Positions 20,664 to 60,732 of a DNA stretch of 64,000 nt are shown one piece after another (the stretch's first letter is position 1; each line of letters opens with the position of its first letter). The DNA is taken from positions 3,348,001-3,412,000 of the forward strand of contig NZ_FMIA01000002.1 of NCBI RefSeq assembly GCF_900091615.1, given 5' to 3'. The translations under genes and the position numbers were made by a program. Source of the DNA: Micromonospora yangpuensis (GTDB taxonomy: Bacteria > Actinomycetota > Actinomycetes > Mycobacteriales > Micromonosporaceae). The notes below the pieces were generated by a model that had not been told where the DNA came from, searched no databases, and saw nothing but the letters and a program-made list of their open reading frames with translations.

Positions 20664-20721
20664 TTGACCAGTTGGCGCGTGGGTGGGTACGGTGCAGGAA
20701 CGCCGTTCCTATCAACGGAAC
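20664..20721 (+). promoter_or_regulatory. promoter and IclR-type operator of the CoA-transferase operon (site A)
   Basis: TTGACC at 20664-20669, an 18-base spacer, then TACGGT at 20688-20693. Three bases later comes GGAAC-GCC-GTTCC-TATCAAC-GGAAC (20697-20721). The first two half-sites form a perfect palindrome. The operator overlaps the predicted transcription start, so binding should repress. The same layout recurs at five other promoters in the window. Confidence 0.72.
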
Positions 20722-20768
20722 AGGCCGCCGGCTCCTCCGGTCGGTGAACGTGACGAGAGTGGGATCGA

Positions 20769-21986
20769 GTGGGCGGGCAGGAGTCACGCAGCCGACGGGT
20801 GCTCGACGGTATCCGCGTCCTCGACGTGTCGACGATCCTGGCTGGTCCGATGACCTGCCAGATCCTCGGCGACTTCGGTGCCGACGTGATCAAGATCGAG
20901 CATCCGCGGCACGGCGACGGCATGCGGGGCCACGGTTTGGCCAAGGACGGCGTCGGCCTGTGGTGGAAGATGATCAGCCGCAACAAGCGCACCGTCGGGC
21001 TGTACCTCGGTGACGCCGAGGGGCAGGACGTCTTCCGTGAGCTGGTGCGTACCGCCGACGTGGTGGTGGAGAACTTCCGCCCCGGCACGCTGGAGAAGTG
21101 GGGCCTGGGCCCGGAGCGGCTGCGGGAGCTGAACCCGGGCCTGGTGCTGCTGCGGGTCACCGGGTTCGGCCAGACCGGGCCGTACGCGGCCCGGCCCGGG
21201 TTCGGCACCCTCGCCGAGTCGATGAGTGGCTTCGCCCACCTGACCGGTGAGCCGGACGGCCCGCCGACGCTGCCCGCGTTCGGCCTGGCCGACTCGATCG
21301 CCGGGATCACCGGCGCGTCGGCGGTGATGATGGCGCTCTACGCCCGGGCCACCGGCGACGGTCGCGGGCAGGAGATCGACCTCGACATCCTGGAACCGAT
21401 CATGACGGCGGTCGGCCCGAGCGTCATCTACGTCGACCAGCTCGGGGTGGTCCAGCAGCGTACCGGCAACCGGTCGCTGAACAACGCCCCCCGCAACACC
21501 TACCGCACCAGCGACGACCGGTGGGTGGCCATCTCCACCTCGGCGACCTCGATCGCCGAGCGGGTCATGACGCTGGTCGGGCATCCCGAGGTGATCGCCG
21601 AGCCGTGGTTCGCCACCGGCGGCGGCCGGGCCGCCCACGCCGACCAGCTCGACTCCTATGTGGCCGACTGGATCGGCGCGCGTACCCGGGACGAGGTCTC
21701 CGACGCCTTCGCGGCGGCCGGCGCGGCGGTGGCCCCGGTGTACGCCCCGGACGAGCTGCTCGACGACCCGCAGGTACGCGCCCTGGACATGATCACGAAG
21801 GTCGACGACCCGGAGCTGGGCAGCATCCGGATGCAGAACGTGCTGTACCGGATGGCCGGCACCCCCGGCGAGATCCGTTTCACCGGCCGGCCGATCGGGG
21901 CCGACACCGACGAGGTGCTCGGCGACGAGCTGGGCCTCGACGCGGACCGGTTGGCCGAACTTCGACAGCGGGGAGTTGTGCGATGA
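20769..21986 (+). CDS. family III CoA-transferase (CaiB/BaiF type)
   Basis: 405 residues from GTG 20769. The N-terminal signature LDGIRVLDVSTILAGPMTCQILGDFGADVIKIEHP and then ISRNKRTVGLYLGDAEG, VVENFRPGTLEKWGLG and LLRVTGFGQTGPYAARPGFGTLAESMSGFAHLTGEPDGPP mark a class III CoA-transferase, which moves CoA between carboxylic acids. The catalytic Asp is expected in the LEPIM / DLDILEP region. First gene of an operon with a cyclase (ATGA overlap), MmgE/PrpD and others, under operator site A. It probably activates a carboxylic acid intermediate; the acid is unknown. Confidence 0.9.
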   Translation: MGGQESRSRRVLDGIRVLDVSTILAGPMTCQILGDFGADVIKIEHPRHGDGMRGHGLAKDGVGLWWKMISRNKRTVGLYLGDAEGQDVFRELVRTADVVVENFRPGTLEKWGLGPERLRELNPGLVLLRVTGFGQTGPYAARPGFGTLAESMSGFAHLTGEPDGPPTLPAFGLADSIAGITGASAVMMALYARATGDGRGQEIDLDILEPIMTAVGPSVIYVDQLGVVQQRTGNRSLNNAPRNTYRTSDDRWVAISTSATSIAERVMTLVGHPEVIAEPWFATGGGRAAHADQLDSYVADWIGARTRDEVSDAFAAAGAAVAPVYAPDELLDDPQVRALDMITKVDDPELGSIRMQNVLYRMAGTPGEIRFTGRPIGADTDEVLGDELGLDADRLAELRQRGVVR

Positions 21987-22825
21987 CCGTGGAGACAGTG
22001 CTGGCCGAGCGCGGGGGTGACCTGCTGCTCGACGCCGTCCTGGCCGGAGTGCGGGTGTTCGACCTGGGCCGGCCGCTGCGGATCGGGATGCCCCAGTCGC
22101 CGAACCACCCGCCGTTCTGGCACACCCTGCCGCGCCGGCACGGCGACAGCTACCGGGCCGACGGGATGTCCGCCGCCAACGACCTGATCTCGATGGGCAC
22201 CCACGTGGGCACCCACATCGACGCGCTGGCCCACGTCGCGGTCGACGACCGGCTGCACGGCGGTGGCGACGCGAAGCAGGCCCAGACCGGCGGCCGGTTC
22301 GACTCCGGCGCGATCGACCAGCTGCCCCCGCTGGTGGGGCGGGCGGTGCTGCTGGACGTGCCGGCGGCGCTCGGCGTGGCGACGCTCGAACCGGCCTACG
22401 AGATCACCCCGGCCGACCTGGACCGGGCCGTCGAGCGGCAGGGCACCCCGGTACGACCGGGCGACGTGGTGCTGATCCGCTCCGGGTGGGGCAGCCGCTA
22501 CGACGACCGGGACGCCTACATCGGCCACCACACCGGGGTACCCGGGGTCGGCGAGGCCGGCGCACAGTGGATCGCCGCCCAGCGGGCCCGGCTGGCCGGT
22601 GCGGACACCATCGCCTTCGAGCGGCTCAGCGCGGGGGCGGGGCACGCCCTGCTGCCGGCCCACCGGGTGCTGCTGGTCGAGCACGGGATCAACCTGATCG
22701 AGGCGATGGCCCTGGAGGAGCTGGCCGCCGCCGAGGTGCACGAGTTCACCCTGATCCTGGCCCACCTGGCCATTGTCGGCGCCACCGGCAGCCCGGTCCG
22801 CCCGCTCGCGGTGGTCGGCGCGTGA
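21983..22825 (+). CDS. cyclase/kynurenine formamidase-family metal hydrolase
   Basis: 280 residues; ATGA overlap with the CoA-transferase. The Cyclase-family metal motif H-x-G-T-H-x-D is present as H74, H78 and D80 (HVGTHIDALAH), with HPPFWH upstream and VVLIRSGWG and RVLLVEHGINLIEAM downstream. Members hydrolyse amides, lactones or cyclic bonds (kynurenine formamidase, isatin hydrolase), usually with Mn or Zn. In this operon it could open a ring or a formamide before CoA activation. The N-terminal 25 residues are not conserved. Confidence 0.85.
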   Translation: MTVETVLAERGGDLLLDAVLAGVRVFDLGRPLRIGMPQSPNHPPFWHTLPRRHGDSYRADGMSAANDLISMGTHVGTHIDALAHVAVDDRLHGGGDAKQAQTGGRFDSGAIDQLPPLVGRAVLLDVPAALGVATLEPAYEITPADLDRAVERQGTPVRPGDVVLIRSGWGSRYDDRDAYIGHHTGVPGVGEAGAQWIAAQRARLAGADTIAFERLSAGAGHALLPAHRVLLVEHGINLIEAMALEELAAAEVHEFTLILAHLAIVGATGSPVRPLAVVGA

Positions 22826-24318
22826 CCGCCACCCAGAACCAGCCGGCCACCGGGCAGGCCACGGCCATCGGGCAGCACACCCCGGACCAGTCGGCCGCGA
22901 CGCTCGGGCGGCAGCTTGCCGAGTTCGCCGCGGCGTACGGACCGGGCGGGCGACCCCTGCCCGAGGCGGTGACCCGCAGCGTGGCGCAACGCGTACTGGA
23001 CATCCTCGGCATCGCGGTCGCGGCCACCAGCCTGCCGACCAGCGCCGCGGTGATCGAGCTGGCCCGTGAGCGCGGCGGCCGGCCGGCGGCGCGGGCGATC
23101 GGGCTGACCGGTCGGGTGCCGGCCAGCGAGGCGGCCCTGGTGCACGGCGTGCTGGCCCACTCGCTGGACTACGACGACACCCACCTGCCGTCGGTGCTGC
23201 ACCCCAGCGCCAGCGTGGTGCCGGCCGCGCTCGCCGCCGGCGACGAGGTCGGCGCGGACGGCGCGCAGGTCACCGCGGCGATCGCGGTCGGCCTGGAGAT
23301 CTGTGTCCGGGTGGGGATGGCCGGCTACGACCGGGCCTCCGGCGTCAACAGGTACTTCGAGCGGGGTCAGCACGCCACCTCGCTGTGCGGGGCGCTCGGC
23401 TCGGCCGCCGCCGCCGCGAAGCTGTACCGGCTGGACGCCGACGGGATCCTGCACGCGCTGGGCATCGCGGCGAGCATGGCCTCCGGGATCATCGAGGGCA
23501 ACCGCACCGGCGGTACGGTCAAGCGGATGCACTGCGGCTGGGCCGCGCACGCCGGGGTCTGGGCCGCGCAGTTGGCCCAGCGCGGGTTCACCGGGCCGGA
23601 AACCCTGTTGGAGGGCCGGTTCGGGCTGTTCCAGGCGTTCCTCGGTGGCGAGTTCGACGCCGAGGCGGTGACCGAGGGGCTTGGTCGACGCTGGGAGGTG
23701 CCGGGGATCTTCTTCAAGCCGTACCCGGCGAACCACTTCACCCACGCCGGCATCGACGCGGCGATCGCGTTGCGCGAACGCGGCCTGCGGGCGGCCGACG
23801 TGGCCGCCGTGGAACTCGGGGTGCCCACCGCGACGGTCCGCACCATCGGTGAGCCGCTGGCGGTCAAGCAGGCCCCGGAGACCGGGTACCAGGCGCAGTT
23901 CTCCGGCCCGTACACCATCGCGGCGGCGCTGCTCGGCGGTGGTGGGCTGGGGCTCGGCCTGGACGACTTCACCGACGAGCTGGCCCGTGACCCGGTGCGC
24001 CGGGAGCTGATGGGACGGGTCACCGTGGTCGCCGACGCGCGCTGCGACGCGATCTTCCCGAACCAGTTCCCGGCGGTGCTGCGGGTACGCACCCACGACG
24101 GCACCTGGCTGGAGGAGGCGGTGCTGGCCAACCGGGGCGGTTCCGAGCGGCCGCTCTCCGACGACGAGGTGGCCGGCAAGTTCCGGGACAACGCCGCCCG
24201 GGTGCTGCCGGCCGAGCGGGTCGAGGCGATCGCCGCGGCCGCCCGGGCGCTGCCCGACGCACCCAGTATCGACGACCTTCTCGGCGCGCTGACCGCCGCC
24301 GACGGTGTTCCACGATGA
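22822..24318 (+). CDS. MmgE/PrpD-family dehydratase/isomerase
   Basis: 498 residues from GTG 22822 (GTGA overlap). The MmgE/PrpD fold is shown by VLDILGIAVAATSLPTSAAVIELA, HGVLAHSLDYDDTHLPSVLHPSASVVPAALAAGDEVG, GQHATSLCGALGSAAAAAKLY, MHCGWAAHAGVWAAQLAQRGFTGP and KPYPANHFTHAGIDAAIALRE. Relatives are 2-methylcitrate dehydratase, cis-aconitate decarboxylase (IrgI/CAD) and iminodisuccinate epimerase, so it probably acts on a di- or tricarboxylate. It lies between the cyclase and the IclR regulator. An IclR half-operator overlaps its last codons. Confidence 0.88.
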   Translation: MTATQNQPATGQATAIGQHTPDQSAATLGRQLAEFAAAYGPGGRPLPEAVTRSVAQRVLDILGIAVAATSLPTSAAVIELARERGGRPAARAIGLTGRVPASEAALVHGVLAHSLDYDDTHLPSVLHPSASVVPAALAAGDEVGADGAQVTAAIAVGLEICVRVGMAGYDRASGVNRYFERGQHATSLCGALGSAAAAAKLYRLDADGILHALGIAASMASGIIEGNRTGGTVKRMHCGWAAHAGVWAAQLAQRGFTGPETLLEGRFGLFQAFLGGEFDAEAVTEGLGRRWEVPGIFFKPYPANHFTHAGIDAAIALRERGLRAADVAAVELGVPTATVRTIGEPLAVKQAPETGYQAQFSGPYTIAAALLGGGGLGLGLDDFTDELARDPVRRELMGRVTVVADARCDAIFPNQFPAVLRVRTHDGTWLEEAVLANRGGSERPLSDDEVAGKFRDNAARVLPAERVEAIAAAARALPDAPSIDDLLGALTAADGVPR

Positions 24319-24332
24319 GGAACGACTACGGT
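24307..24332 (+). promoter_or_regulatory. partial IclR-type operator upstream of the IclR gene (site F)
   Basis: GTTCC-ACGATGA-GGAAC (24307-24323) has the same N7 spacing as the second half of the other operators. The first GRAAC half is poor (CCGAC). A TACGGT box like that of site A lies just downstream (24327-24332). It is a candidate autoregulatory site that overlaps the end of the MmgE/PrpD gene. Confidence 0.4.
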
Positions 24333-24401: not shown

Positions 24402-25199
24402 GTGAGCGACACCAGCAAGACGATTCTCACCGTGGGTCGGGCGATGGACGTGCTGACGCTCTTCACCGAGCGCAACGAGTCGACCCTCGGGGTCACCGAG
24501 ATCTCCAAGGCGCTCGGGTTGTCCAAGGCGGTGGTGCACCGGATCCTGTCGACCCTGCTGGAGAAGGACTTCATCCAGATCGAGGCACAGACCCGCCGGT
24601 ACGCCCTGGGTCCGGCGGCGTTGAAGCTCGGCCTGACCTACCTGGACGGCATCGACGTACGCCGGCTGGCCCAGCCGATCCTGCACGAGCTGGTGGCGGC
24701 CACCCAGGAGACCTCCACGCTCTCCATCCGCAGCGGCTGGACCCGGGTCTACATCGACCAGGAGACCCCGTCGACCGACATCCGGATGTCGGTGCAGCTG
24801 GGCCACCCCTACCCGCTGCACGCGGGCTCGTCGTCCAAGGCGCTGCTGGCCTTCCTCGACCCCGACGAGCAGGAGGCGTACCTGTCCAGCGGGCCGCTGC
24901 AGCGACGCACCCCGAGCACCATCACCGACCCCGACGAGCTGCGCACGGAGCTGCGGCTGGTCCGGGAACGGGGCTACGCCCGCTCGCTGGGCGAGCGGCA
25001 GGAGGACGCCGCGTCGGTGGCCGCCCCGGTCTTCGACCACCGGGGTACGCCGATCGCCGCGGTGAGCGTCTGCGGGCCGCTCAAGCGCTTCGAGCCGAAG
25101 ATCGACGCCGCCGCGCAGGCGCTGCTGGAGGCGGTACGCAAGCTCTCGGCCCAGCTGGGTCACCGGGAGAACGGGACGGCGCCGCCGATCGGGCGGTGA
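24402..25199 (+). CDS. IclR-family transcriptional regulator
   Basis: 265 residues from GTG 24402, chosen because GGAGGGG lies 7 bases upstream; an in-frame ATG at 24315 would add 29 non-conserved residues. The winged helix-turn-helix is at about residues 8-70 (VGRAMDVLTLFTE, LGVTEISKALGLSKAVVHRILSTLLEKDFI, RRYALGPAALKLG). The effector-binding IclR domain follows (IRSGWTRVYIDQ, YPLHAGSSSKALLAFL, GYARSLGERQEDAASVAAPVFD, IAAVSVCGP). It is embedded in the catabolic operon and is the only IclR gene in the window. That makes it the prime candidate to bind the GRAAC-N3-GTTYC-N7-GGAWS operators at 20697, 28723, 28834, 51977, 53175 and 60714. Confidence 0.9.
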   Translation: MSDTSKTILTVGRAMDVLTLFTERNESTLGVTEISKALGLSKAVVHRILSTLLEKDFIQIEAQTRRYALGPAALKLGLTYLDGIDVRRLAQPILHELVAATQETSTLSIRSGWTRVYIDQETPSTDIRMSVQLGHPYPLHAGSSSKALLAFLDPDEQEAYLSSGPLQRRTPSTITDPDELRTELRLVRERGYARSLGERQEDAASVAAPVFDHRGTPIAAVSVCGPLKRFEPKIDAAAQALLEAVRKLSAQLGHRENGTAPPIGR

Positions 25200-25241: not shown

Positions 25242-26624
25242 GTGCCGGTGCACTCCACGCTCGACCTCTCGGGCGACTCGTTGCTCTACGCGGATCCCGC
25301 CGAGGTCCAACGGCTTCGTGATCCGCTCGTCGCCGAGCAGGTCCAGCTGCTCGCCCGGCACCATCCCTACTACCGGCAGGTCCTCGCCGGTGGCGACCCG
25401 GGGCAGGTGCGGGGCGTGGCCGACCTGGACCGGCTGCCGGTCACCGGCAAGCAGGACTTCCTGGCCGACCCGGAGGCGTTCCGGTTGGCCCCGCCGGACC
25501 GGCTGCCGGTGGAGGAACGGACCCTGGCGTACCTGATCTACACCACCGGCACCACCAGCGGCGCGCCCGCCCCGCTCTACATCACCACCAGCGACGACTG
25601 GGCGTACCTGCTGCACGCCCGGCGCTGTGCCCGGATGCTGGGGCTGGAGAGCACCGACGTGATCGCCAACCTGTTCCCGCTGACGCCGTTCCCGATGGGC
25701 GCGCGGATCCGGGCCGACCGGACGGCGGCGGCCGTCGGGGCCAGCATCTTCCAGGGCCACACCGGCCGGGGCAGCGCGGCGTGGCCGGTGCACCGGCGGC
25801 TGGACGAGGCGATCGACCTGGTGCTCGCGCACCGGGCCACGGTGCTCTGGGGGGTGGCCGGCTTCGTCCGCCGGGTGCTCATCCGCGCCGCCGAACGGCA
25901 GCTGCGGCTGCCCAGCGTACGGTGGTGTTTCGTCACCGGGGAGGCGACCAGCGACGCCGGCCTGGACGACCTGCGGGCCCGGTTGTCGGCGGTAGGCGCG
26001 CCGCAGGCCCGGGTGGCCAACCGGTACGGCTCCACCGAGGGCTGGAGCATGATCGCCTGCGCGGACGGGCACGGCTGGCACAACCCGACCCCGGAGCTGG
26101 TGCACCTGGCGGTGGTCGATCCGGTCACCCACCAGCCGCTTCCCGACGGGGAGACCGGGCTGCTGCTGATCAGCCACCTGCGGGCCCGGGGCACCGCCTT
26201 CCTGCGGTACGCCGTCGGCGACCTGGTGGCGCTCACCCGGCAGACCTGCCCGTCCTGTGGGCGTACCGCCGAGCGGATCGTCTCCCAGCCGGTGCGGACC
26301 AAGGACCTGGTCAAGGTCAACGGCACCCTGGTCAACCTCGGGGTGCTCGGCGACGCGCTGGTGGACCTGCCCGGCGTCGCGGAGTACCGGGTGATCCTCG
26401 ACCACCGTAAGCCGGGTGACACGTTCTCCGGTGACGGCATCCTGGTGGAGTTCGCCCCGGTCGCCGGGGCCGACCCGGACCCGGTGGCCTCGGCGGTGCG
26501 CGAGCGCATCCGCGAGCTGGCCCACCTGACCCCGCAGGTACGGGTGGCCGCCGCCGACGAGATCTACGACCCGGCGGCCGACGCCAAACCCCGCCGGCTC
26601 ATCGACCGGCGCCCGACCGGCTGA
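25242..26624 (+). CDS. AMP-dependent CoA ligase, phenylacetate-CoA ligase-like
   Basis: 460 residues from GTG 25242 (GGGAAGGG upstream). The adenylation-domain motifs of the PaaK group are clear: P-loop YTTGTTSGAPAPLYIT, NLFPLTPFPMGA, FVTGEATSDAG, NRYGSTEGWSMI, ETGLLLISHL, YAVGDLVAL and a Cys pair in TCPSCGRT. The C-terminal small domain has RTKDLVKVNGTLVNLG and PGVAEYRVILDHR. It would activate an aryl or other carboxylic acid with ATP and CoA. The spacing (42 bases from iclR, 34 to the amidohydrolase) suggests one operon. Confidence 0.87.
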   Translation: MPVHSTLDLSGDSLLYADPAEVQRLRDPLVAEQVQLLARHHPYYRQVLAGGDPGQVRGVADLDRLPVTGKQDFLADPEAFRLAPPDRLPVEERTLAYLIYTTGTTSGAPAPLYITTSDDWAYLLHARRCARMLGLESTDVIANLFPLTPFPMGARIRADRTAAAVGASIFQGHTGRGSAAWPVHRRLDEAIDLVLAHRATVLWGVAGFVRRVLIRAAERQLRLPSVRWCFVTGEATSDAGLDDLRARLSAVGAPQARVANRYGSTEGWSMIACADGHGWHNPTPELVHLAVVDPVTHQPLPDGETGLLLISHLRARGTAFLRYAVGDLVALTRQTCPSCGRTAERIVSQPVRTKDLVKVNGTLVNLGVLGDALVDLPGVAEYRVILDHRKPGDTFSGDGILVEFAPVAGADPDPVASAVRERIRELAHLTPQVRVAAADEIYDPAADAKPRRLIDRRPTG

Positions 26625-26658: not shown

Positions 26659-27516
26659 GTGCCCACAGGCGTGATAGACGTGGTCGTCAACCCGTACACC
26701 CCCGAGATCGTGGCCGCCCGCCCGGGCTGGAGCAAGGACTTCCTCGGTCGCAAGATCGGGGCGGGGGACCGGCTGCCCGGCGTCACCACCGAGGACTACC
26801 TGGCGAAGATGGACCGGGCCGGCATCGAGCGGTCGTTCCTGATCGCCGCGAAGCTCGGCCCGGTCACCGACGTCAACAGCTTCCACCTGCAGATCGAGGT
26901 GGTCGCCGAGATGGTGGCCGCGCACCCGGACCGGTTCAGCGGCCTGGTCGGGCTGGACCCGACCGCCGGCATGGCCGAGCTGCGGCACCTGGAACGGGCG
27001 GTCACCGAGTACGGCTTCGTCGGGGCGCACTCCTACCCGCACTGGTTCGGCCTGCCGCCGGACCACCGGCGGTACTACCCGATCTACGCCAAGTGCGCCG
27101 AGCTGGACATCCCGATCCAGCTGCAGGTGGGCCACTGCCTGCGCTACGACGACGCCCGGCCGCTGCGTAGCGTGGGCCGCCCGATCACCCTGGACACGGT
27201 GGCCTGCGAGTTCCCCGAGTTGAAGCTGGTGGGGATCCACATCGGCTGGCCGTGGACCGAGGAGATGATCGCGGTCGCCTACAAGCACCCGAACGTCTAC
27301 ATCGGGGTCGACGCGTACGCGCCGAAGCACTGGCCGGAGACGCTCGTGCACTTCATGAACACCTTCGGCCGGGAGAAGGTGCTCTTCGGCACCGACTACC
27401 CGGTGATCGACCCGGAGCGGGCCATGCGGGAGTTCGCCGAGCTGGGGTTGCGCGCGGAGTCGGCGGCGGCGGTGCTGCGCGACAACGCGCTGCGCCTGTA
27501 CGACCTGCCGACCTGA
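26659..27516 (+). CDS. amidohydrolase-2 family TIM-barrel hydrolase/decarboxylase
   Basis: 285 residues from GTG 26659, with GAAGGAG upstream. The ACMSD/amidohydrolase_2 barrel is seen in GVTTEDYLAKMDRAGIERSFLI, RFSGLVGLDPTAGMAELRHLERAV, QLQVGHCLR (His), GIHIGWPWTEEMIAVAYKHPNVYIG and VLFGTDYPVIDPERAM (Asp). The first metal motif, usually D-x-H-x-H, is altered to DVVVNPYTPEI here, so metal binding may be lost or use other residues, as in some decarboxylases of the family. Last plus-strand gene of the site-A operon; it converges on an MFS gene 15 bases away. Confidence 0.82.
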   Translation: MPTGVIDVVVNPYTPEIVAARPGWSKDFLGRKIGAGDRLPGVTTEDYLAKMDRAGIERSFLIAAKLGPVTDVNSFHLQIEVVAEMVAAHPDRFSGLVGLDPTAGMAELRHLERAVTEYGFVGAHSYPHWFGLPPDHRRYYPIYAKCAELDIPIQLQVGHCLRYDDARPLRSVGRPITLDTVACEFPELKLVGIHIGWPWTEEMIAVAYKHPNVYIGVDAYAPKHWPETLVHFMNTFGREKVLFGTDYPVIDPERAMREFAELGLRAESAAAVLRDNALRLYDLPT

Positions 27517-27531: not shown

Positions 27532-28716
27532 TCAGGCGCGGCGGCGGGTGGTCAGGTAGGCGGCGGTGGCGAGCGCGGCCACCATGGCGGCGGCGGCGAT
27601 TCCGCTGACGCCGAAGGCGGCCATCGGCCCGACCGCGCCGACCAGCACCGCACCGATCACCGGACCGGTGGCCTGACCGAGGCGGGACGAGGCCGACCAG
27701 GCACCGATCAGCGCCCCCCGGCCGGTGATCTGCTGCCGGGAGACGTGGTGCAGCGCGGCGTTGTAGGCGCAGCCCACCCCGACCCCGAGCAGCAGGGTGC
27801 TGAGCACCACCACCCAGAGCGCGGGCGCGGCGGCGGCCAGCAGCAGGGCGGCGGCGCAGAGGCCCAGGCCGGCCAGGGCGGTGTACCGGTCGGCGAGCCG
27901 GCCGGCCAGCACCGCCAGCATCGCCGAGGCGGCCAGGCTGCCGATGTTGCCGAGGCCGACGAAGACGCCCCGGGCGGCCAGTGGCACCTCGAACACCCGT
28001 TCCAGGGCCAGCGGGAGCACGGCGGCGGTGGTGCCCGACATCAGCACGATGGTGACCGTGGTCAGGCAGAGGGCGCCGAGGGCGGTGCCGAGGGTGCCCT
28101 GCCGGCGCAGGTCCGGCAGGACGCGTGGGGAGCCGCCCCGGGTGGTGGCCCGGCCGGTGGTCAGGCCGAGCACCCGGATGGTCGAGGGGACCAGCAGAAT
28201 CCCGACGGCGTAGGCCCAGAACGCGTTGCGTGGGTCGCCGAGGCTGGCCACGAACCCGCCGACCACCGGCCCGAGGGTGCTGGCGGTGGTCAGGACCAGG
28301 GTGTTCACCGCCAGGGCCCGTTGCCGGCCGGCGCCGGTGAAGGTCTCGGCGATCACCGTGGGCGGGATGGTCAGCAGGCCGGCGAAGCCGATCCCCTGCA
28401 CCACCCGCAGGGCGACCGCGACGCCGAACGAGTCGACAAGCGCGCAGGCGGTGCCCGCGAGGACGAACAGCAGCAGGCAGAACAGTGCCATCCGGCCCCG
28501 GCCGACCCGGTCGGAGAGGCCCCCCAGCAGCACGGTCAGGGCGATCCCGGGTACCGCGATGACGCCCTGGAGCAGTCCGACGGCGGCCTCGTCGACCTGG
28601 TAGGCGGCGGCCAGTTCGGCCATCGCCGGGGCGAGCATTCCGTAGCCGGAGGAACCGACCGCGGAGAGCGCGGTCACGGCGAGCAGGGCGCCGGTGCCGG
28701 GTGGTCGAGATGACAC
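27532..28716 (-). CDS. MFS transporter, probably substrate uptake for the regulon
   Basis: 394 residues from ATG 28716, with 12 predicted helices. The loop 2-3 signature is LLGGLSDRVGRGRMAL, with GSSGYGMLAPAMAELAAAYQVDEAAVGLLQGV near the start and VGCAYNAALHHVSR in the second half. It is divergent from the oligopeptide ABC operon. The 178-base gap carries back-to-back promoters, each with an IclR-type operator, so the carrier should be co-controlled with the catabolic genes. The substrate may be the same acid, or the protein may export an intermediate. Confidence 0.85.
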   Translation of the reverse strand: MSSRPPGTGALLAVTALSAVGSSGYGMLAPAMAELAAAYQVDEAAVGLLQGVIAVPGIALTVLLGGLSDRVGRGRMALFCLLLFVLAGTACALVDSFGVAVALRVVQGIGFAGLLTIPPTVIAETFTGAGRQRALAVNTLVLTTASTLGPVVGGFVASLGDPRNAFWAYAVGILLVPSTIRVLGLTTGRATTRGGSPRVLPDLRRQGTLGTALGALCLTTVTIVLMSGTTAAVLPLALERVFEVPLAARGVFVGLGNIGSLAASAMLAVLAGRLADRYTALAGLGLCAAALLLAAAAPALWVVVLSTLLLGVGVGCAYNAALHHVSRQQITGRGALIGAWSASSRLGQATGPVIGAVLVGAVGPMAAFGVSGIAAAAMVAALATAAYLTTRRRA

Positions 28717-28722
28717 GAAATC

Positions 28723-28757
28723 GATCCATTCAGCGGAACGGCGTTTCGCTGAACGTA
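28723..28757 (-). promoter_or_regulatory. promoter and IclR-type operator of the MFS gene (site B1)
   Basis: Reading on the minus strand, TACGTT (28757-28752) is followed after four bases by GAAAC-GCC-GTTCC-GCTGAAT-GGATC (28747-28723). The wider sequence 28731-28751 is a 21-bp palindrome with one mismatched pair. The MFS start codon is 7 bases further on, so the bound protein would block both transcription and early elongation. Confidence 0.7.
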
Positions 28758-28800: not shown

Positions 28801-28858
28801 TTGACACTCCCGGCGAGCCGCGCTTAGTGTGCAGAAACGCTGTTCCGCTTGGCGGATC
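28801..28858 (+). promoter_or_regulatory. promoter and IclR-type operator of the ABC importer operon (site B2)
   Basis: TTGACA (28801-28806), an 18-base spacer and TAGTGT (28825-28830). Three bases later comes GAAAC-GCT-GTTCC-GCTTGGC-GGATC (28834-28858). Its third half-site, GGATC, matches that of site B1. The operator covers the predicted start of transcription. Confidence 0.72.
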
Positions 28859-30490: not shown

Positions 30491-30503
30491 GGCGGAGCCG
30501 ACC

Positions 30504-34819: not shown

Positions 34820-34835
34820 CGCCGGGGCCGACCGG

Positions 34836-35486: not shown

Positions 35487-35488
35487 TG

Positions 35489-47344: not shown

Positions 47345-47352
47345 GGAATCGG

Positions 47353-47441: not shown

Positions 47442-47446
47442 ACTTC

Positions 47447-48079: not shown

Positions 48080-48153
48080 TCGACTCGGTTGGGTAGATAT
48101 GGCGGTATCAACCAGCCTCGGACACCGCCATATCGGCCCAACCGAGTCGATCA
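48076..48153. repeat. 78-bp palindromic repeat, copy 3
   Basis: The arms 48076-48106 and 48124-48153 pair with two mismatches. The 17-base loop (ATCAACCAGCCTCGGAC) closely matches copy 1. It overlaps the last codons of the SNF2 remnant and lies 14 bases from the stop of the convergent dehydrogenase gene. Confidence 0.9.
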
Positions 48154-48167
48154 TCGGAAGGGGCGGG

Positions 48168-50179: not shown

Positions 50180-50183
50180 GTCC

Positions 50184-51914: not shown

Positions 51915-51968
51915 GGTCACGTCTCCCCGGTCGTCGTCTCGGCCCTGTCCCGACCCCGTCAGCTGCGC

Positions 51969-52001
51969 TACGTTATGAAACACCGTTTCGTCATACGGAA
52001 C
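51969..52001 (+). promoter_or_regulatory. promoter element and IclR-type operator (site C)
   Basis: TACGTT (51969-51974) is followed after two bases by GAAAC-ACC-GTTTC-GTCATAC-GGAAC (51977-52001). The site is oriented toward the amidohydrolase at 52018, but being in a 103-base divergent gap it could also control the TPP-enzyme operon. No good -35 box is visible, so activation is also possible. Confidence 0.65.
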
Positions 52002-52017
52002 AAGAGGGGTGTTCGCA

Positions 52018-53140: not shown

Positions 53141-53199
53141 TTGACAGGGTTCGACGATCACGCCTAGTTTTTCTGGAACGGCGTTTCGCTCAGCGGAAG
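53141..53199 (+). promoter_or_regulatory. promoter and IclR-type operator (site D)
   Basis: TTGACA (53141-53146), 18 bases, TAGTTT (53165-53170). Four bases on comes GGAAC-GGC-GTTTC-GCTCAGC-GGAAG (53175-53199). The layout is that of sites A and B2. The third half-site doubles as the ribosome site region (GCGGAAGGA) of the ADC-like gene. Confidence 0.72.
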
Positions 53200-53206
53200 G
53201 ATAGAC

Positions 53207-54013
53207 ATGTCCACGCTCCGAGGGTTCGGCAATCCACTCTCCCCGACCGGCCGAGCGGCGCTCGTCGACCCGCCGCCGCACCACATCAGCGCCGACGCGA
53301 TCCAGGTCGTCTACCGGGTTGACCCGGACAAGGCCCGGGCGTACCTGCCGGACGGGCTCGAACTGCACCCGGACGCGCTCGCCTACGCGTACGTGGCCGA
53401 CATGGTCAAGGTCAGCGAGAGCCAGCCCGACCAGGCCTGGGTGGAACCGCAGGCCTCCCAGTACCAGGAGGGCATCCTCGGCCTCTACTGCACCTACCAG
53501 GGGCAGCCCGGCCGGTTCAGCGCCTTCATCTGGGTCAGCGAGGACTGGTCGGTGGTCTTCGGCCACTACATGGGCTTCGCCAAGAAGCAGGGCCTGATCC
53601 ACAAGACGAAGATCCAGCCGGCCAACCCGGCGCTCGGCCCGGTCGGGCCCGGCACCCGGTTGCGCGGCACCGTCGACCGGTTCAGCCACCGGATCTTCAA
53701 CGTCGACATCCAGCTCACCGAGAAGATCGACGACGACGCGATCCCCTCGCACGGCCACCGCGTCTACACCTACCGGCACATCCCGTCGCCCAGCCCGGAC
53801 GTGGCCGACCAGCGGCAGTTGTTCGCCCTCGACCTGGACCGGGCCACCACCATCGACGCCTGGCGGGGCACCGGCGGCGTGGAGATCAAGACCGACGCGT
53901 TCAACGAGGACCTCGACGGCTTCCAGCCGCTGGAGATCGTCGACGCGTTCACCTTCCAACGTGGCTGGACCACCAAGGCCGGCGCGACCCTGCTGCGAGA
54001 GGACCACGCATGA
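53207..54013 (+). CDS. acetoacetate decarboxylase-family protein
   Basis: 268 residues from ATG 53207. The ADC fold is indicated by VYRVDPDKARAYLPDGLELHP, AYAYVADMVKVSES, QYQEGILGLYCTYQGQPGRFSAFIWVSED and the Schiff-base lysine region FGHYMGFAKKQGLIHKTKI (K126 or K127; true ADC has a similar Lys-Lys pair). Related members act as decarboxylases, aldolase-dehydratases or hydratases. It heads a four-gene operon with ATGA/GTGA overlaps to a NicX/M29-like enzyme, an amidohydrolase and a flavoprotein, under operator site D. Confidence 0.85.
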   Translation: MSTLRGFGNPLSPTGRAALVDPPPHHISADAIQVVYRVDPDKARAYLPDGLELHPDALAYAYVADMVKVSESQPDQAWVEPQASQYQEGILGLYCTYQGQPGRFSAFIWVSEDWSVVFGHYMGFAKKQGLIHKTKIQPANPALGPVGPGTRLRGTVDRFSHRIFNVDIQLTEKIDDDAIPSHGHRVYTYRHIPSPSPDVADQRQLFALDLDRATTIDAWRGTGGVEIKTDAFNEDLDGFQPLEIVDAFTFQRGWTTKAGATLLREDHA

Positions 54014-54984
54014 CCGACTGGGCCGCACTCCAGGTCGCCAAGGCCGCCCGCAACGTCGTCGACACCTCCCTCGCGGTACGCCCCGGCGAGCAGGTACTGG
54101 TCGCCGCCGACCACAACTCCGACCAGGCGGTGGTGGACGCGCTGCTGGCCGCCGTCGCCTCGGCCGGGGCCGAGGGCACCCTGGTGGTGCAGCCGGCCCG
54201 GGTCCGCGCCGGCGAGCCGGCCAACACGGTGATGGCAGCCGCCCTGGCCGGCGCCGACGTGATCATCTCGCCGACCTCGACCGCGCTGAGCTTCACCCCG
54301 GAGCTGAAGCAGGCCCTCAACCGGGGCGCGCGGGCCATCGTGATGACCGGGGTGACCCGGGCCGAGCTGACCGGTGGGGCCGGGGTGGCCGACTACGAGG
54401 AGGTCTACCGGATCACCAAGCCGCTCTCCGACGCGATCACCGCCGGCTCCCGGATGCGGATCACCTCCGCCCAGGGTTCCGACCTGACCGCCTCGCTGGA
54501 GGGGGTCACCTGCGGCGTCGGGGCGTCCTTCGCCCGGGAGCCCGGCCAGATCTCCAGCTACCCCAGCGGCGAGGCGTGGAGCGCGCCGGCCACCGGCACC
54601 GGGCAGGGCGTGCTGGTCGCCGACGGCTCGGCCCACCAGCTCGGCAAGCTGCGCGAGCCGATCCGGGTGCACTTCACCGACGGCCGGGCGGTCCGGATCG
54701 AGGGCGGCGCACAGGCCGACGAGCTGCGCCAGATGATCGACGGGGTGGAGAACGGCGACAACCTGGGCGAGCTGTCCATCGGCACCAACCCGGCGGCCCG
54801 GTTCCTCGGCAACATCACCGAGGACAAGAAGCAGGTAGGCACCGTCCACTTCGCCCTCGGCAACAGCGTCGTCGGCGGCACGGTCAAGGCCCCGATCCAC
54901 GTCGACCTGCTGCTGCTCACCCCGACCGTCGAGGTGGACGGGGAGATCCTGGTCCAGGACGGCAAGATCGTGAAAACCGCATGA
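54010..54984 (+). CDS. M29-peptidase/NicX-fold metalloenzyme
   Basis: 324 residues; ATGA overlap with the ADC-like gene. The order of blocks follows the M29 aminopeptidase and 2,5-dihydroxypyridine dioxygenase (NicX) group: VRPGEQVLVAADHNSDQAVVDALLAAV, TSAQGSDLTASLEG, YPSGEAWSAPATGTGQGVLVADGS, GELSIGTNPAARFLGNITEDKK, GTVHFALGNSVVGG, IHVDLLLL. Likely metal ligands are E254, H280, H297 and D299. The H-x-D pair matches NicX, whereas the Glu and first His match the peptidase branch. It may be a ring-opening oxygenase or an amide hydrolase, and the catabolic context favours small-molecule chemistry over peptide cleavage. Confidence 0.78.
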   Translation: MTDWAALQVAKAARNVVDTSLAVRPGEQVLVAADHNSDQAVVDALLAAVASAGAEGTLVVQPARVRAGEPANTVMAAALAGADVIISPTSTALSFTPELKQALNRGARAIVMTGVTRAELTGGAGVADYEEVYRITKPLSDAITAGSRMRITSAQGSDLTASLEGVTCGVGASFAREPGQISSYPSGEAWSAPATGTGQGVLVADGSAHQLGKLREPIRVHFTDGRAVRIEGGAQADELRQMIDGVENGDNLGELSIGTNPAARFLGNITEDKKQVGTVHFALGNSVVGGTVKAPIHVDLLLLTPTVEVDGEILVQDGKIVKTA

Positions 54985-56054
54985 GCGTACCGGCGATCGA
55001 CACGCACACCCACTTCTGGCCCCGGGGGCTGCTCGCGGCCGGTCGCGCCGGGCGGGACTGGTACGGCTGGCGGGCGCTGACCGAGGGCAACGGGAAACGG
55101 GCCTTCGCGTTGGGGCGTACCGTGCTGGCCTTCGACCCGCCGGAGGTCGACCTGGACGATCCGACGGCCCGGCTCGCCGGTCGGACCGCCGCCCAGGGCA
55201 TCGCCTTCGAAGCGGTGCAGGTCGCCGGCTTCCTGTTCAACTACCACCTCGACGCGGCCCGGGGCGCGGCCTTCTGCCGGGAGCTCAACACCGAGCTGGC
55301 CGAGTTGCAGGCCGCCGCGCCGCAACGCTACCGGGGGCTGGCCCAGCTGCCCCTGCAGGACCGCGACGCCGCCCTGGCCACCCTGGACCACGCGGTCCGG
55401 GAACTGGGCCTGCGGCACTTCGTCATCACCCCGGCGGTCAACGGCCGCAACCTGGACGATCCGCAGATCCTGCCGGTGCTGGAGGCGATGGCCGAGGCCG
55501 GGGTCACGGTGAACGTGCACCCGGCCTTCTTCGACAAGCTCGGCGCGGGCGACCGGCTCAGCCGGTACTACTTCGAGAGTTCCTTCGCCGCGCCGGTGGA
55601 GGCCAGCATCGGGCTGATGTCGGTGATCCACTCCGGCCTGCTGGACCGCCATCCCGACCTGCGGATGTGCTTCACCCACGGCGGCGGCATCGCGATCCAC
55701 TCGCTGGGCCGCTTCGACCACCGGTGGCACATGATCGGCGCGGCCCAGCGCAGCATGGCCCGGCCACCCAGCGAGTACCTGGCCGCCGGCAACCTCTTCT
55801 ACGACGTGCTGGTGCACGACGTGCGGGCCCTGGAACTGGTCGTCGAACGGGTCGGGGTGGACCAGCTGACCATCGGCACCGACCACCCGTTCGCCTGGGA
55901 CCACCCGGGCGGGGCGGCGAACTGGATCCGGGACGCCGACTTCCTCGACGCCGAGGCCCGGGAGAAGATCCTCTGGCGCAACGCGGCCCGCCTCTACGAC
56001 CTGGACACCACCGTCGGTCCGTGGGGCGACCCCGCGTCGGCGGTGTCGGGGTGA
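54981..56054 (+). CDS. amidohydrolase-2 (ACMSD-type) metal hydrolase/decarboxylase
   Basis: 357 residues from ATG 54981 (ATGA overlap). Zn ligands: AIDTHTHFWPRG (H-x-H), VNVHPAFF, CFTHGGGIAIHSLGRFDHRW and TIGTDHPFAWDH (Asp). It is clearly a paralogue of the enzyme at 52018 (shared LPLQDxDAAL-x-x-LDHAV, NLDDP, EAS/AGL, IHSGLLDRHP/IYSGLLDRYP, LVHDxRAL). Two such enzymes in one regulon suggest two successive or parallel decarboxylations or hydrolyses. Relatives include aminocarboxymuconate-semialdehyde and gamma-resorcylate decarboxylases. Confidence 0.87.
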   Translation: MSVPAIDTHTHFWPRGLLAAGRAGRDWYGWRALTEGNGKRAFALGRTVLAFDPPEVDLDDPTARLAGRTAAQGIAFEAVQVAGFLFNYHLDAARGAAFCRELNTELAELQAAAPQRYRGLAQLPLQDRDAALATLDHAVRELGLRHFVITPAVNGRNLDDPQILPVLEAMAEAGVTVNVHPAFFDKLGAGDRLSRYYFESSFAAPVEASIGLMSVIHSGLLDRHPDLRMCFTHGGGIAIHSLGRFDHRWHMIGAAQRSMARPPSEYLAAGNLFYDVLVHDVRALELVVERVGVDQLTIGTDHPFAWDHPGGAANWIRDADFLDAEAREKILWRNAARLYDLDTTVGPWGDPASAVSG

Positions 56055-57418
56055 GCGACTGTGACGTGGTGGTGGCCGGTGCCGGTGGCGCCGGCCTCGC
56101 CGCCGCGCTCGCCGCCGCCCAGGCCGGCCGGACGGTGGTGCTGGCCGAGGCGCGGGAGACCTTCCGGCAGGGCAGCAACACCGCGATGAGCACCTCGATG
56201 ATCCCGGCCGCCGGCACCCGCTGGCAGGCCGAGGCGCAGGTCACCGACTCGCCGGCCCGGTTCCTCGACGACATCCGGGCCAAGACCCACGGCCAGGCCG
56301 ACCCGGTGGTCGCGGTCGCGCTCACCACCGTCGCCGCCGAGCTGGTCGACTGGCTGGCCGACGCCTGCGGGGTACCGCTGGAACTGGTCACCGACTTCAG
56401 CTACCCCGGGCACTCGGCGTACCGGTGCCACAGCGTGCCGGACCGCTCCGGGGCGAGCCTGCACCGGGCGCTGCTGGACGCCGCGGCGAACCTGGACGAC
56501 CTGCACCTGGTGGTACCGGCCCGGCTGGTCGACGTGCGCACCGACGAGCGCGGCGCGGTGCGCGCCGCCGTGCTGCAACGACCCGACGGCAGCCGGGAGG
56601 AGATCGACACGGCAGCCGTGGTGCTGGCCACCAACGGCTTCGCCGCCGACGCCGACCTGGTCGGCCGGCACCTGCCGGAGATCGCCGGCGGGGTCTACCA
56701 CGGCGGGGAGGCCTCCCGGGGCGACGCGCTGCACCTGGCCGAGCGGCTGGGCCTGGACACCGGCTGCCTCGACGCGTACCAGGGGCACGGGTCGCTGGCC
56801 GTGCCGGAGTCGATCCTGCTCACCTGGGCGGTGGTCATGCACGGCGGCTGGTTGGCCGACGCCGCCGGCCGGCGCTTCGGCGACGAGACGGTCGGCTACT
56901 CCGAGTACGCCGTCAAGGTGCTGGCCCGCCCCGGCGGCCGGGCCTGGGCCGTCTACGACCAGCGGATCCACCAGGCCTGCCTGGCATTCAAGGACTACCT
57001 GGACGTGGTGGAGGCCGGTGCGGTGCGCTGGGCCGACGACCTGGCCCAACTGGCCGCCGCCACCGGGCTGCCGGTGGACGCGTTGACCGCCACCATGAAC
57101 GAGGCGAACGCCGCCGCCTCCGGTGCCGGGGCCGACCGCTTCGGCCGTACCACGTGGGCGGGCCCGTTGCGGCCACCGTTCGCGGCGGTCCGGGTCACCG
57201 GCGCGCTCTTCCACACCCAGGGCGGGCTCCTGGTCGACCGGCACGCCCGGGTGCTACGCGGCGGGACCCCGGTGCCCGGCCTGTACGCCGCAGGTGGCGC
57301 CGCCGTCGGGATCTCCGGCCACGGTGCCGGCGGCTACCTGGCCGGCAACGGTCTGCTGGCCGCCCTCGGCCTGGGCTTCCTCGCCGGCCGCCACGCGGCG
57401 GATCACGGCAGCCGCTGA
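56051..57418 (+). CDS. FAD-dependent oxidoreductase (fumarate reductase/ketosteroid dehydrogenase-like)
   Basis: 455 residues from GTG 56051 (GTGA overlap). The FAD dinucleotide fold opens the protein (DVVVAGAGGAGLAAALAAAQAGRTVVLAEA), followed by SNTAMSTSMIPAAGTRWQ. A second FAD contact lies in AAVVLATNGFAADADLV and the closing block in GLYAAGGAAVGISGHGAGGYLAGNGLLAALGLGFLAGRHAA. This is the FAD_binding_2 family, which adds or removes hydrogens next to a carbonyl or in an enoic diacid. Last gene of the site-D operon. No signal peptide. Confidence 0.88.
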   Translation: MSDCDVVVAGAGGAGLAAALAAAQAGRTVVLAEARETFRQGSNTAMSTSMIPAAGTRWQAEAQVTDSPARFLDDIRAKTHGQADPVVAVALTTVAAELVDWLADACGVPLELVTDFSYPGHSAYRCHSVPDRSGASLHRALLDAAANLDDLHLVVPARLVDVRTDERGAVRAAVLQRPDGSREEIDTAAVVLATNGFAADADLVGRHLPEIAGGVYHGGEASRGDALHLAERLGLDTGCLDAYQGHGSLAVPESILLTWAVVMHGGWLADAAGRRFGDETVGYSEYAVKVLARPGGRAWAVYDQRIHQACLAFKDYLDVVEAGAVRWADDLAQLAAATGLPVDALTATMNEANAAASGAGADRFGRTTWAGPLRPPFAAVRVTGALFHTQGGLLVDRHARVLRGGTPVPGLYAAGGAAVGISGHGAGGYLAGNGLLAALGLGFLAGRHAADHGSR

Positions 57419-58288: not shown

Positions 58289-59755
58289 TCAGTCGCGGAC
58301 CGGGCGGCGCAGGTAGCGGCCGGTCGGGGTGCCGACCACCGCGCCGTCGCGCAGGATCCGGTTGCCGCGCAGCCAGACTTCGTCGACCCGGGCGGTCAGC
58401 TCGAAACCCTCGAACGGGGTGTACTCCTGGGTGGAGTCGCTCTCCTGGGCCCGTACCGTCCAGGTCCGGTCCGGGTCGACGAGCACGATGTCGGCGTCGA
58501 AGCCCGGCGCGAGGTCGCCCTTGCGTGGCCAGAGCCCGTAGCGCTTGGCCGGGTTGGCGCTGAGCAGCTCGGCGACCCGGCCCAGCGGCAGGCCGTGCCG
58601 CCGGCCCTCGGTGATCAGACCCGGCAGCAGGTACTCGGCCCCGCCGAAGCCGGACTTGGCCAGGAACACGTCGTCGCGGTCGGTGCCGAACTTGGCCTCG
58701 TCGCGGCAGCAGGCGTGGTCGGAGACCACCCAGTCGACGTGCCCGTCCAGCACCGCCTGCCAGAGCGCCAGCCGGTCCGACTCGGCCCGCAGCGGCGGGT
58801 TGACCTTGCCGCCCAGCCCGGCGGCGGTGTCGTAGGTGGCCAGCAGGTGGCCGATGGTGACCTCGCGGCGGAAGTCCACGTGCGGGAAGGCCTGGGCCAT
58901 CCGCAGCGCCGCGGACATCGCCTTCTCGCCGGACAGGTGCAGCAGGTTGATCGCCGGCAGGCCGGTCTCGTGGGCCAGGTACGAGGCCATGGTGATGGCC
59001 AGCCCCTCCGAGTGTGCCGGCCGTGACGCGCTGTACGCGGCCAGGCCCTTCAGATCGCCGGCCTCCTCGACCAGCTTGGTGTAGGCGGCCATGATCTCGG
59101 CCGTCTCGCAGTGCAGCGAGAGGCTGATCCCGTCGGCCAGCTCGGGCCGTTCGGCGCGGACCCGCTGCACGCCCCGCATGACGAACTCGAAGTGTGCCAG
59201 GTCGTAGCGCTCGCCGGGCGGGGTCATCAGGAACGACGACTGGTCGGCCGAGCGGCCGTGCAGCCCGTGTGAGCCGTAGAACATGAAGATCTTGAACGAG
59301 GAGACCCCGAAGTCGTCGACCAGTTGGCCCAGCTCGTCGATGTGCCCGGCCTGCATGGGGGCGAGGTGGAACGCGTAGTCGACGTACGAGCGGTCCTGGC
59401 TGAGCTTGAGCACCTCGGGGAAGAACTCGGCGTAGCTGCCGCCCCGGTTGAGGTAGTACTGGCCGGTGCGCATGTAGGTCAGGCCGGTGGTCACCCCGCC
59501 CTGTGCCGACGCCCGCGACTCGCTGTCGGTGTCGACGTCCAGCGGGTTGTAGATGCCCCAGTGCTGGTGGCCGTCGACGGCGCCGGGGAAGGCCAGCCGG
59601 CCTCGGGCGTCGACGACCTCCCGGGCGTCCTCGGGTCGCAGCTGCGGCCCGATCGCGGTGATGGTGCCACCGTCGACCGCGATGGCGGCCGGGACGGGAT
59701 CCGCTGTCCCGGGTCGCACCACTCGCGCGTTGGTGATGAGCAGGTCATGGGTCAT
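58289..59755 (-). CDS. dihydropyrimidinase/hydantoinase-like cyclic amidohydrolase
   Basis: 488 residues from ATG 59755 (AGGAGGGG upstream). The binuclear metal site of the hydantoinase/dihydroorotase group is complete: GHQHWG (H-x-H), the carboxylated lysine in SSFKIFM, His in SLHCET, His in NLLHLSG and Asp in VVSDHACC. The end is ANPAKRYGLWPRKGDLAPGFDADIVLVD. It would open a cyclic amide or imide ring (hydantoin, dihydropyrimidine or allantoin type). It lies between the site-D operon and the CitE-like gene. The 97-base upstream gap ends at a weak IclR-like half-operator (59818-59834). Confidence 0.88.
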   Translation of the reverse strand: MTHDLLITNARVVRPGTADPVPAAIAVDGGTITAIGPQLRPEDAREVVDARGRLAFPGAVDGHQHWGIYNPLDVDTDSESRASAQGGVTTGLTYMRTGQYYLNRGGSYAEFFPEVLKLSQDRSYVDYAFHLAPMQAGHIDELGQLVDDFGVSSFKIFMFYGSHGLHGRSADQSSFLMTPPGERYDLAHFEFVMRGVQRVRAERPELADGISLSLHCETAEIMAAYTKLVEEAGDLKGLAAYSASRPAHSEGLAITMASYLAHETGLPAINLLHLSGEKAMSAALRMAQAFPHVDFRREVTIGHLLATYDTAAGLGGKVNPPLRAESDRLALWQAVLDGHVDWVVSDHACCRDEAKFGTDRDDVFLAKSGFGGAEYLLPGLITEGRRHGLPLGRVAELLSANPAKRYGLWPRKGDLAPGFDADIVLVDPDRTWTVRAQESDSTQEYTPFEGFELTARVDEVWLRGNRILRDGAVVGTPTGRYLRRPVRD

Positions 59756-59817
59756 CGCACACCCCTCCTAGCGGCTGCGGCCCAGGCTAAGGCCCCCGGA
59801 CCGCTGTGCGCAACACC

Positions 59818-59834
59818 GGTCCGCTGGTCGGAAC
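59818..59834 (-). promoter_or_regulatory. weak IclR-like half-operator (site G)
   Basis: On the minus strand GTTCC-GACCAGC-GGACC shows the GTTCC-N7-GGAxC spacing of the other sites, but the leading GRAAC half is absent. It lies 63-79 bases upstream of the hydantoinase start. It may be a degenerate site or chance. Confidence 0.3.
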
Positions 59835-59852
59835 ATTGGGGATGCGTGGTGG

Positions 59853-60698
59853 TCAACGGCGGGCGCGGGCCAGCACCGCGCGGGCGGAGCGGGCCACCGC
59901 CTCGTCGACCATCGTGCCGGTACCGGCCACCGCCACCGCGCCGCCGTCGCCGGCCGCGTACGCCGCCAGTACCCGCTCGGCCGCCGCGACCTCGTCGGCC
60001 GAGGGGGTGAAGACCTCGTTGATCACCGGCAGCTGGGCCGGGTGGATGGCGGTCCGGCCACCGAAGCCCAGGTGCCGCAGGGCGGTCGTCTCGGCGCGCA
60101 GCCGGTCCAGGTCGCGGTAGTTCACCGAGGCCGGCCCGACCGGCGCGGCCAGCCCGGCGGCGGCGGAGGCGGCCACCACCTCGAAGCGTGCCGGCAGCAG
60201 CTCCAGCCCGTCCGGTCCCGGCCGCAGGCCCAGGTCGGCGACGAGGTCGGCCTCACCGAGGCCGAGCAGCAGCATCCGGGGGGCCGCCGCGATCGCGTCG
60301 ATCCGGCGCAGCCCCCGGGCCGACTCGACCCGGGGGGACACCGCGATCCGCCCGACGGGCAACCCCCGCTCCTGCTCCAGCCGGGTCAGCGTGGCGTCCA
60401 CCCGGTGCAGCAGTTCGGCGTCGTCGACCTTGGCCACCACGATCCCGTCGAGCCCGGGACGGACGACCGCGTCGAGGTCCTCGTCCAGCGCGCTCGGGCA
60501 GACGCGTACCCAGACCGCCGGCCCGTCGACCGGCCGGTCACCGAGCCAGCGGGTCAGCAACTCGCGGGCCTGTGGGCGTTCCGCCGCGGCGACACCGTCC
60601 TCCAGATCGGCGATGAGCGCGTCGGCGTCGCTGGTCAGGGCGCGGGCGAGCATCCGCTCGCGGTGGCCCGGGACGTAGAGCCAGGATCGGGGCAGCAT
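59853..60698 (-). CDS. HpcH/HpaI aldolase family, CitE-like lyase
   Basis: 281 residues from ATG 60698. CitE-type blocks: SWLYVPGHRERMLARAL, ADALIADLEDGVA (Mg-binding Glu-Asp), AVWVRVCPSALDEDLDAVVRPGLDGIVVAKVD, ISPRVESARGL-like VSPRVESARGLRRIDAI, LLLGLGEADLVADLG and HLGFGGRTAIHPAQLPVINEVFTPS. Stand-alone members cleave citramalyl-, malyl- or related CoA esters. That would fit the CoA-transferase and ligase of the same regulon. It is transcribed from a promoter with the best palindromic operator of the set (site E). Confidence 0.87.
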   Translation of the reverse strand: MLPRSWLYVPGHRERMLARALTSDADALIADLEDGVAAAERPQARELLTRWLGDRPVDGPAVWVRVCPSALDEDLDAVVRPGLDGIVVAKVDDAELLHRVDATLTRLEQERGLPVGRIAVSPRVESARGLRRIDAIAAAPRMLLLGLGEADLVADLGLRPGPDGLELLPARFEVVAASAAAGLAAPVGPASVNYRDLDRLRAETTALRHLGFGGRTAIHPAQLPVINEVFTPSADEVAAAERVLAAYAAGDGGAVAVAGTGTMVDEAVARSARAVLARARR

Positions 60699-60712
60699 GC
60701 GGCCTCCTAGAG

Positions 60713-60732
60713 TGGAACGTCGTTCCAGTCTA
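60713..60732 (-). promoter_or_regulatory. -10 box and palindromic IclR-type operator (site E)
   Basis: TGGAACG-T-CGTTCCA (60713-60727) is a perfect 15-bp palindrome, extended by CCTAGA/TCTAGG outside. On the minus strand a TAGACT -10 box (60732-60727) abuts it directly. The N7-GGAWS third half-site is missing here. It lies 15 bases before the CitE-like start codon. Confidence 0.65.

Follow-up and report, generated by a model that had tools for sequence, protein, structure and literature searches.

A repeated three-box operator and its probable IclR-family regulator in a catabolic gene cluster of Micromonospora yangpuensis

The catabolic gene cluster described here lies in a window of 64,000 nucleotides from Micromonospora yangpuensis (contig NZ_FMIA01000002.1, positions 3,348,001 to 3,412,000), and all coordinates without a contig or locus name are those of the window. 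The cluster includes one gene for an IclR-family regulator together with repeated copies of a short operator, and sequence comparisons argue that its units form a single regulon under that IclR protein, a reading to which we give a probability of roughly 0.87. The operator pattern is GRAAC-N3-GTTYC-N7-GGAWS, referred to as three-box, and its two-box form is GGAAC-N3-GTTCC. The features of the locus are given below, with gene starts being approximate; the congeners mentioned are the genomes G156, G299 and G245.

20631..20655, plus strand: possible auxiliary site upstream of operator A, three-box pattern with one mismatch
20697..20721, plus strand: operator A, exact three-box match, box bases the same in the three congeners; serves the operon of CoA-transferase, cyclase, PrpD, iclR, CoA-ligase and amidohydrolase genes
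20769..21986, plus strand: family III CoA-transferase, start perhaps at 20799
21983..22825, plus strand: cyclase-family hydrolase (PF04199), start approximate
22822..24318, plus strand: MmgE/PrpD-family protein, start approximate
24299..24323, plus strand: possible partial operator H at the prpD-iclR junction, of which the window retains boxes 2 and 3 only
24402..25199, plus strand: iclR regulator gene; the reading frame is open from 24315 and GTG at 24402 is the preferred start
25242..26624, plus strand: PaaK-like CoA ligase
26659..27516, plus strand: amidohydrolase (Amidohydro_2)
27532..28716, minus strand: MFS transporter, start approximate and near operator B
28723..28747, minus strand: operator B, exact three-box match, preceding the MFS transporter gene
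28834..28858, plus strand: operator C, exact three-box match, box bases the same in the three congeners; precedes the Opp-type ABC transporter operon and the isochorismatase-like hydrolase gene
28895..34247, plus strand: Opp/Dpp-type ABC transporter (SBP5, two permeases, fused ATPase)
34217..34819, plus strand: isochorismatase-like hydrolase
48168..51983, minus strand: thiamine-pyrophosphate (TPP) enzyme, phosphoenolpyruvate (PEP)-mutase/PrpB-like lyase and 2-hydroxyacid dehydrogenase, starts approximate
51977..52001, plus strand: operator D, exact three-box match, box bases the same in the three congeners; flanked by the ACMSD-like amidohydrolase gene downstream and by a divergently oriented TPP-enzyme gene
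52009..53112, plus strand: ACMSD-like amidohydrolase
53175..53199, plus strand: operator E, exact three-box match, box bases the same in the three congeners; precedes the ADC/M29/amidohydrolase/flavoprotein operon
53207..57418, plus strand: ADC/MppR-like protein, NicX-like M29 protein, ACMSD-like amidohydrolase and FAD_binding_2 flavoprotein
58289..59755, minus strand: hydantoinase/allantoinase-like amidohydrolase
59810..59834, plus strand: operator G, degenerate three-box site with two mismatches, upstream of the hydantoinase-like gene
59853..60698, minus strand: HpcH/CitE-like C-C lyase
60714..60726, minus strand: operator F, exact two-box match, preceding the HpcH/CitE-like lyase gene

The CoA-transferase, PrpD-, hydantoinase-, ACMSD-, NicX- and CitE-like families suggest a cyclic or heteroaromatic acid as the substrate, whose degradation would be compatible with them, and the best solved relative of the M29 protein is a 2,5-dihydroxypyridine dioxygenase (E 7e-9). 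We found no known pathway that fits all enzyme family assignments of the cluster, and the family matches do not fix the substrate. A literature search by title and start of abstract returned no paper on this cluster, which is weak evidence as subscription journals were mostly missing from it.

The product of the iclR gene scores well above the family cut-offs for both IclR domains (PF09339, HTH_IclR, 46.4 bits with a cut-off of 22; PF01614, IclR_C, 149.3 bits with a cut-off of 24), and its close orthologues align from residue 2 of the form starting at 24402. Its best two NCBIfam matches are BhcR (NF045644) with 178.3 bits and PcaR/PcaU/PobR (TIGR02431) with 155.1 bits, far below the respective curated cut-offs of 350 and 284.75, and membership in either group was thus rejected. 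The recognition-helix segment reads SKAVVHRIL in the close orthologues and SKAVVHRIL, SKAAVHRIL, TKAAVHRIL and, once, SKPAVHRIL in the homologues of 54-59% identity that were displayed. The segment differs in those paralogues of the same genome that aligned (three of five).

A preliminary description of this stretch had placed five exact three-box sites and the two-box site at 60714-60726, each starting 0-4 bases after a -10 box, and all six were recovered at those positions and with that spacing. The -10-like hexamers, read directly from the sequence, are TACGGT (A), TACGTT (B), TAGTGT (C), TACGTT (D), TAGTTT (E) and TAGACT (F), and at A, C and E the motif TTGAC[AC] is found 18 bases before the hexamer. 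With the operator placed so close to the -10-like box, transcription should start within boxes 1 and 2, an arrangement which would suit a repressor. Operator G overlaps a -35-like region, not a start site. The third boxes of the five exact sites are GGAAC, GGATC or GGAAG, with GGAAC itself in A and D. At operator E, the third box (GGAAG) extends into GGAAGGA just ahead of an ATG (53195-53210) and probably also serves as the ribosome-binding site of the downstream gene; the base by which it departs from GGAAC is identical in all four genomes, i.e. those of the window and the three congeners.

The weak copy reported earlier at 59818 corresponds to operator G, of which GCAAC-N3-G[GA]TCC-N7-GGAAC is kept in all four genomes (GCAAC-N3-GATCC-N7-GGAAC in the three congeners), and this conservation suggests that the degenerate site is probably real. 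The partial copy reported before iclR (24307, our site H) is degenerate and sits at overlapping gene ends, and its status as a true operator is uncertain; a more complete version occurs in the congeners. Additionally, weak sites are present upstream of A in the congeners at distances differing from that in the window.

Within this genome, the exact three-box operator is specific to this cluster. Within the window, the three-box pattern with up to two mismatches gave 8 matches compared with a shuffle mean of 0.69 (0/100 shuffles reached 8), and the exact two-box form gave 6 compared with 0.06. The preliminary description had also called for a genome-wide scan, and across the 6,524,299 bases of the two contigs the exact three-box pattern occurs at five places, all five in the window cluster. 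As far as the three-box form is concerned, this answers the refuting condition named there for such a scan. Allowing one mismatch added three further places (reversed control 1), one of which is the auxiliary site at 20631; by the GC-position gene call used for the places outside the window, one of the other two lies within a gene and the second is 24 bases into a called gene start. For the exact two-box form, 12 places were counted in the genome, six of which are in the window, with a reversed control of 3 per strand; among the six outside, two are in genes, two make up a single tandem pair in front of an unrelated gene and two fall outside called genes. Taken by itself, the two-box form is thus less specific than the three-box form. 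As a separate observation, locus L152 of the same genome (C2:2882326-2882365) carries two identical GGAACCGAGTTCC palindromes, spaced 27 bases start to start, between divergent genes, and this pair probably serves another regulator as its operator.

The sites are also conserved as footprints. A matrix of the window's five sites, restricted to box positions, was used to find the orthologous sites in the congeners, and orthologous operators were present at every unit in all three; F has a low score in the congeners and was identified from its location and its two-box sequence, being two-box in all four genomes. Comparing sites A-E of the window with each congener, boxes 1 and 2 agree at 150/150 positions and box 3 at 72/75 (222/225 for all boxes), with all three differences falling at B, whose third box is GGACC in the congeners and which is thus an exact match in the window only. 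The spacers agree less well (N3 34/45, N7 77/105), as do the 60-base gap-aligned flanks (641/868 upstream and 645/823 downstream, 74-78%). An ungapped comparison of the flanks had given 63-68% identity, so that the gapped values represent the smaller contrast between boxes and flanks, and over all pairs the gapped flanks reach 83-85%, owing to the near-identity of G299 and G245 in this region.

Across the family, 354 genomes including that of the window were searched for the IclR protein, scoring only the best seven candidates per genome, with E<=1e-40 as the threshold for a homologue and, by our own choice, 100 kb on the same contig as the limit for linkage between a site and a homologue. A match was found in 97/354 genomes, although close copies besides that of the genome itself were restricted to G156 (86% identity), G299 (83%) and G245 (83%), with the next best at 58%. 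The exact operator was found in 66/354 genomes, with a total of 123 sites compared with 8 for the reversed pattern. Within the window's genus (160 genomes), 11 genomes have an exact site, four of them five each and the other seven one or two, and the four genomes with five exact sites are exactly the four with an IclR copy of 83-100% identity, while the remaining 156 have 0-2. More than half of the exact sites (66/123, in 29 genomes) are linked to an IclR homologue, where a rough expectation from genome size is about 2. Counted per genome, 40 have both, 57 the IclR homologue only, 26 the site only and 231 neither. A 42% homologue in Rhodococcus (L021) showed no excess of the two-box motif, with 8 found compared with 7.06 expected when one mismatch was allowed.

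In G245 (L066:14479), the fifth exact site precedes an NMT1-type ABC transporter gene beside a luciferase-like monooxygenase gene (Pfam on G245 only), with a counterpart in G299 (L062:14612), and no such unit was observed in the window. In G156 the fifth site (L094:8249, C1:5148249) is located about 46 kb from iclR, and an ABC-transporter ATPase homologue follows about 1.1 kb downstream.

Genome-wide specificity, co-occurrence and footprint conservation together strongly support a single regulon under the IclR protein, and this part of the proposal in the preliminary description stands; direct repression of the units is what we infer. Several points weigh against the reading. The counts are not independent, as G299 and G245 are near-identical and the congeners and many of the sites in genus g4 are related. 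Only some of the exact sites in the congeners are orthologous to those of the window, with A, C, D and E shared and B not exact there. Furthermore, 57/97 genomes with an IclR homologue (the window's own genome counted among the 97) are without an exact site, and 26/66 genomes with a site have no homologue at E<=1e-40. Among the 57 sites far from a homologue, 17 are in coding-like sequence (score >=0.2) and are probably chance matches, and one of the six sites of G104, a genome of another genus, is also in coding-like sequence. Site H next to iclR is a degenerate copy, and site F has no box 3 and ranks only 6th once left out of the matrix.

In the mechanism that we propose, the IclR protein would act as the dedicated regulator of the catabolic cluster, binding the three-box operator directly downstream of the -10 box at A-E, the two-box form at F and the degenerate form at G. 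The ligand-free protein would block promoter opening at these units, including its own operon, and a pathway intermediate would release it from the operators. What the analysis shows are the sites, how specific and conserved they are, and their linkage to this iclR gene. Repression of the units is probable, while binding by this protein, autoregulation and the role of the ligand are what we infer.

Alternatively, the same regulon could be controlled by IclR as a ligand-dependent activator or dual regulator, so that only the sign of control would differ. PcaU, which has a three-box site, is an activator or dual-type regulator, and operator G lies over the -35-like region. However, operators A-F should cover the start of transcription, a position where activators are rarely found, and we consider activation unlikely. 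A different regulator, either another IclR paralogue or an unrelated factor, binding the sites is a still more improbable explanation. The motif does appear to be shared within the family, as a more divergent IclR gene is located within 6 kb of 7/57 distant sites (L100, L114, L118, L130, L140, L141 and L142; found with a profile of only 10 sequences, which others may have escaped), and other IclR groups thus seem to employ the three-box site as well. Nevertheless, each of the five other IclR genes in this genome is at least about 500 kb away from the window, outside of which there is no exact site, and of the genes listed for the conserved cluster iclR alone was recognised as a regulator (the stretch from 57.4 to 58.3 kb has no assigned gene). 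That the repeats are a dispersed element or chance similarity has next to no probability and was rejected, since the flanks differ from one site to the next and vary across species while the boxes are fixed, shuffles yield 0.06-0.69 matches and the reversed control is far below the observed count, and nothing in the window's sites speaks for it, even if some single sites elsewhere look like chance matches in genes.

The operator of this IclR regulon is built along known lines. According to Suvorova and Gelfand 2021 (PMC8222616), three-box sites with boxes of alternating direction have been predicted for 32 orthologous groups comprising 199 regulators, with the motifs GKTYCRYW3-4RYGRAMC, including GTT-11-AAC, in group 1 and TGRAACAN1-2TGTTYCA in group 2. 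Compared with these consensus motifs, boxes 1 and 2 of the window operator correspond to the group 2 core GRAAC-N3-GTTYC and boxes 2 and 3 to the group 1 motif GTT-11-AAC (GTTYC-N7-GRAAC), with the middle box shared, and the five exact sites all have this build. A novel operator class was therefore rejected, and the third half-site, which had been regarded as an added feature, instead completes a common motif within a published architecture (PMC8222616). The window operator differs from the group 2 consensus in that the outer T/A bases are not kept, and a further difference from the published systems is the gene content, which is specific to the cluster. In the same paper, PcaU, PobR and HmgR are described as binding a palindrome with an external direct half-site, which PcaU needs for binding. 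The present case resembles them as a catabolic-pathway regulator of the IclR family with three half-sites, while the PcaU consensus TTTGTTCGATWATCGMACAMA represents another sequence class (PMC8222616) and, unlike in these systems, the window operator covers the likely start of transcription at several promoters.

PMC8222616 also raises the open question of two modes of IclR dimerisation on three boxes, on which the natural variants found here (three-box, two-box and degenerate) bear. The shared middle box could act as a two-state switch, with a dimer either on boxes 1 and 2, over the start, or on boxes 2 and 3, downstream and at E over the ribosome-binding site. We regard this as doubtful; if true, the ligand or the promoter sequence would pick the register and a single regulator would provide graded output across a (hetero)cyclic-acid pathway. 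The known picture of IclR regulation is left unchanged by our results. A regulon of seven operators and one regulator is a clean and testable system, and the list of co-regulated genes narrows the search for the pathway substrate.

The arrangement of the cluster was compared by translated searches of the window genes against 80 kb from each of the three congeners. All of the genes, CoA-transferase through HpcH lyase, occur in the same order in 3/3 congeners with 68-94% identity, and in G245 and G299 operators A to F span about 26 kb. Measured between match ends, the gap between the isochorismatase-like and 2-hydroxyacid-dehydrogenase genes is <100 bases in G245 and G299, about 2 kb in G156 and 13.3 kb in the window, where a 13-kb block (34820-48167) separates the cluster halves. 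This block is of xanthine-dehydrogenase type and includes MFS, MerR, molybdenum hydroxylase subunit, XdhC, MobA-like and helix-turn-helix proteins. It has no exact three-box site, and the window's genes at 35.6-48 kb have no match in the 80 kb from each congener; the best matches of its MerR regulator in the three congeners, at 36-41%, carry low information. The genes 40 kb apart, described earlier as unlinked, thus belong to one cluster which is contiguous in G245 and G299 and split here by the block, and an unlinked regulon in this genome was rejected.

The Mrp and SBP56 flanks of the window are not common to the congeners, so that the cluster resides in different surroundings, which suggests a mobile catabolic island. 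An empty island site was sought beyond the Mrp operon in five congeners, and the window's right-hand flank was absent from the stretch read, which in G169 was short owing to a contig end; no insertion site emerged from this search.

In genus g4, a conserved three-box site with the sequence GGAAC[AG]TCGTTTCCCTCAATGGAAC recurs within about 6 kb of VTC/CotH homologues at L091, L092, L147 and L148, and these copies are either distant from the IclR homologue or not on its contig; the copy at L149 is without such a neighbour.

A truly unlinked member of the regulon is seen only in another genus, in G104, where site L126:6001 lies about 337 kb from iclR and immediately before a second cyclase-PrpD pair (67 and 64% identity), with a flavin-hydroxylase-type gene on the other side of the site. 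Both G104 and G107 combine three-box sites and paired IclR homologues with CoA-transferase, cyclase, PrpD, hydantoinase-like and HpcH genes, and in G107 there are further neighbours, namely glyoxalase-fold proteins that may be extradiol dioxygenases, alpha/beta hydrolases, a flavoprotein and an SBP5 transporter gene.

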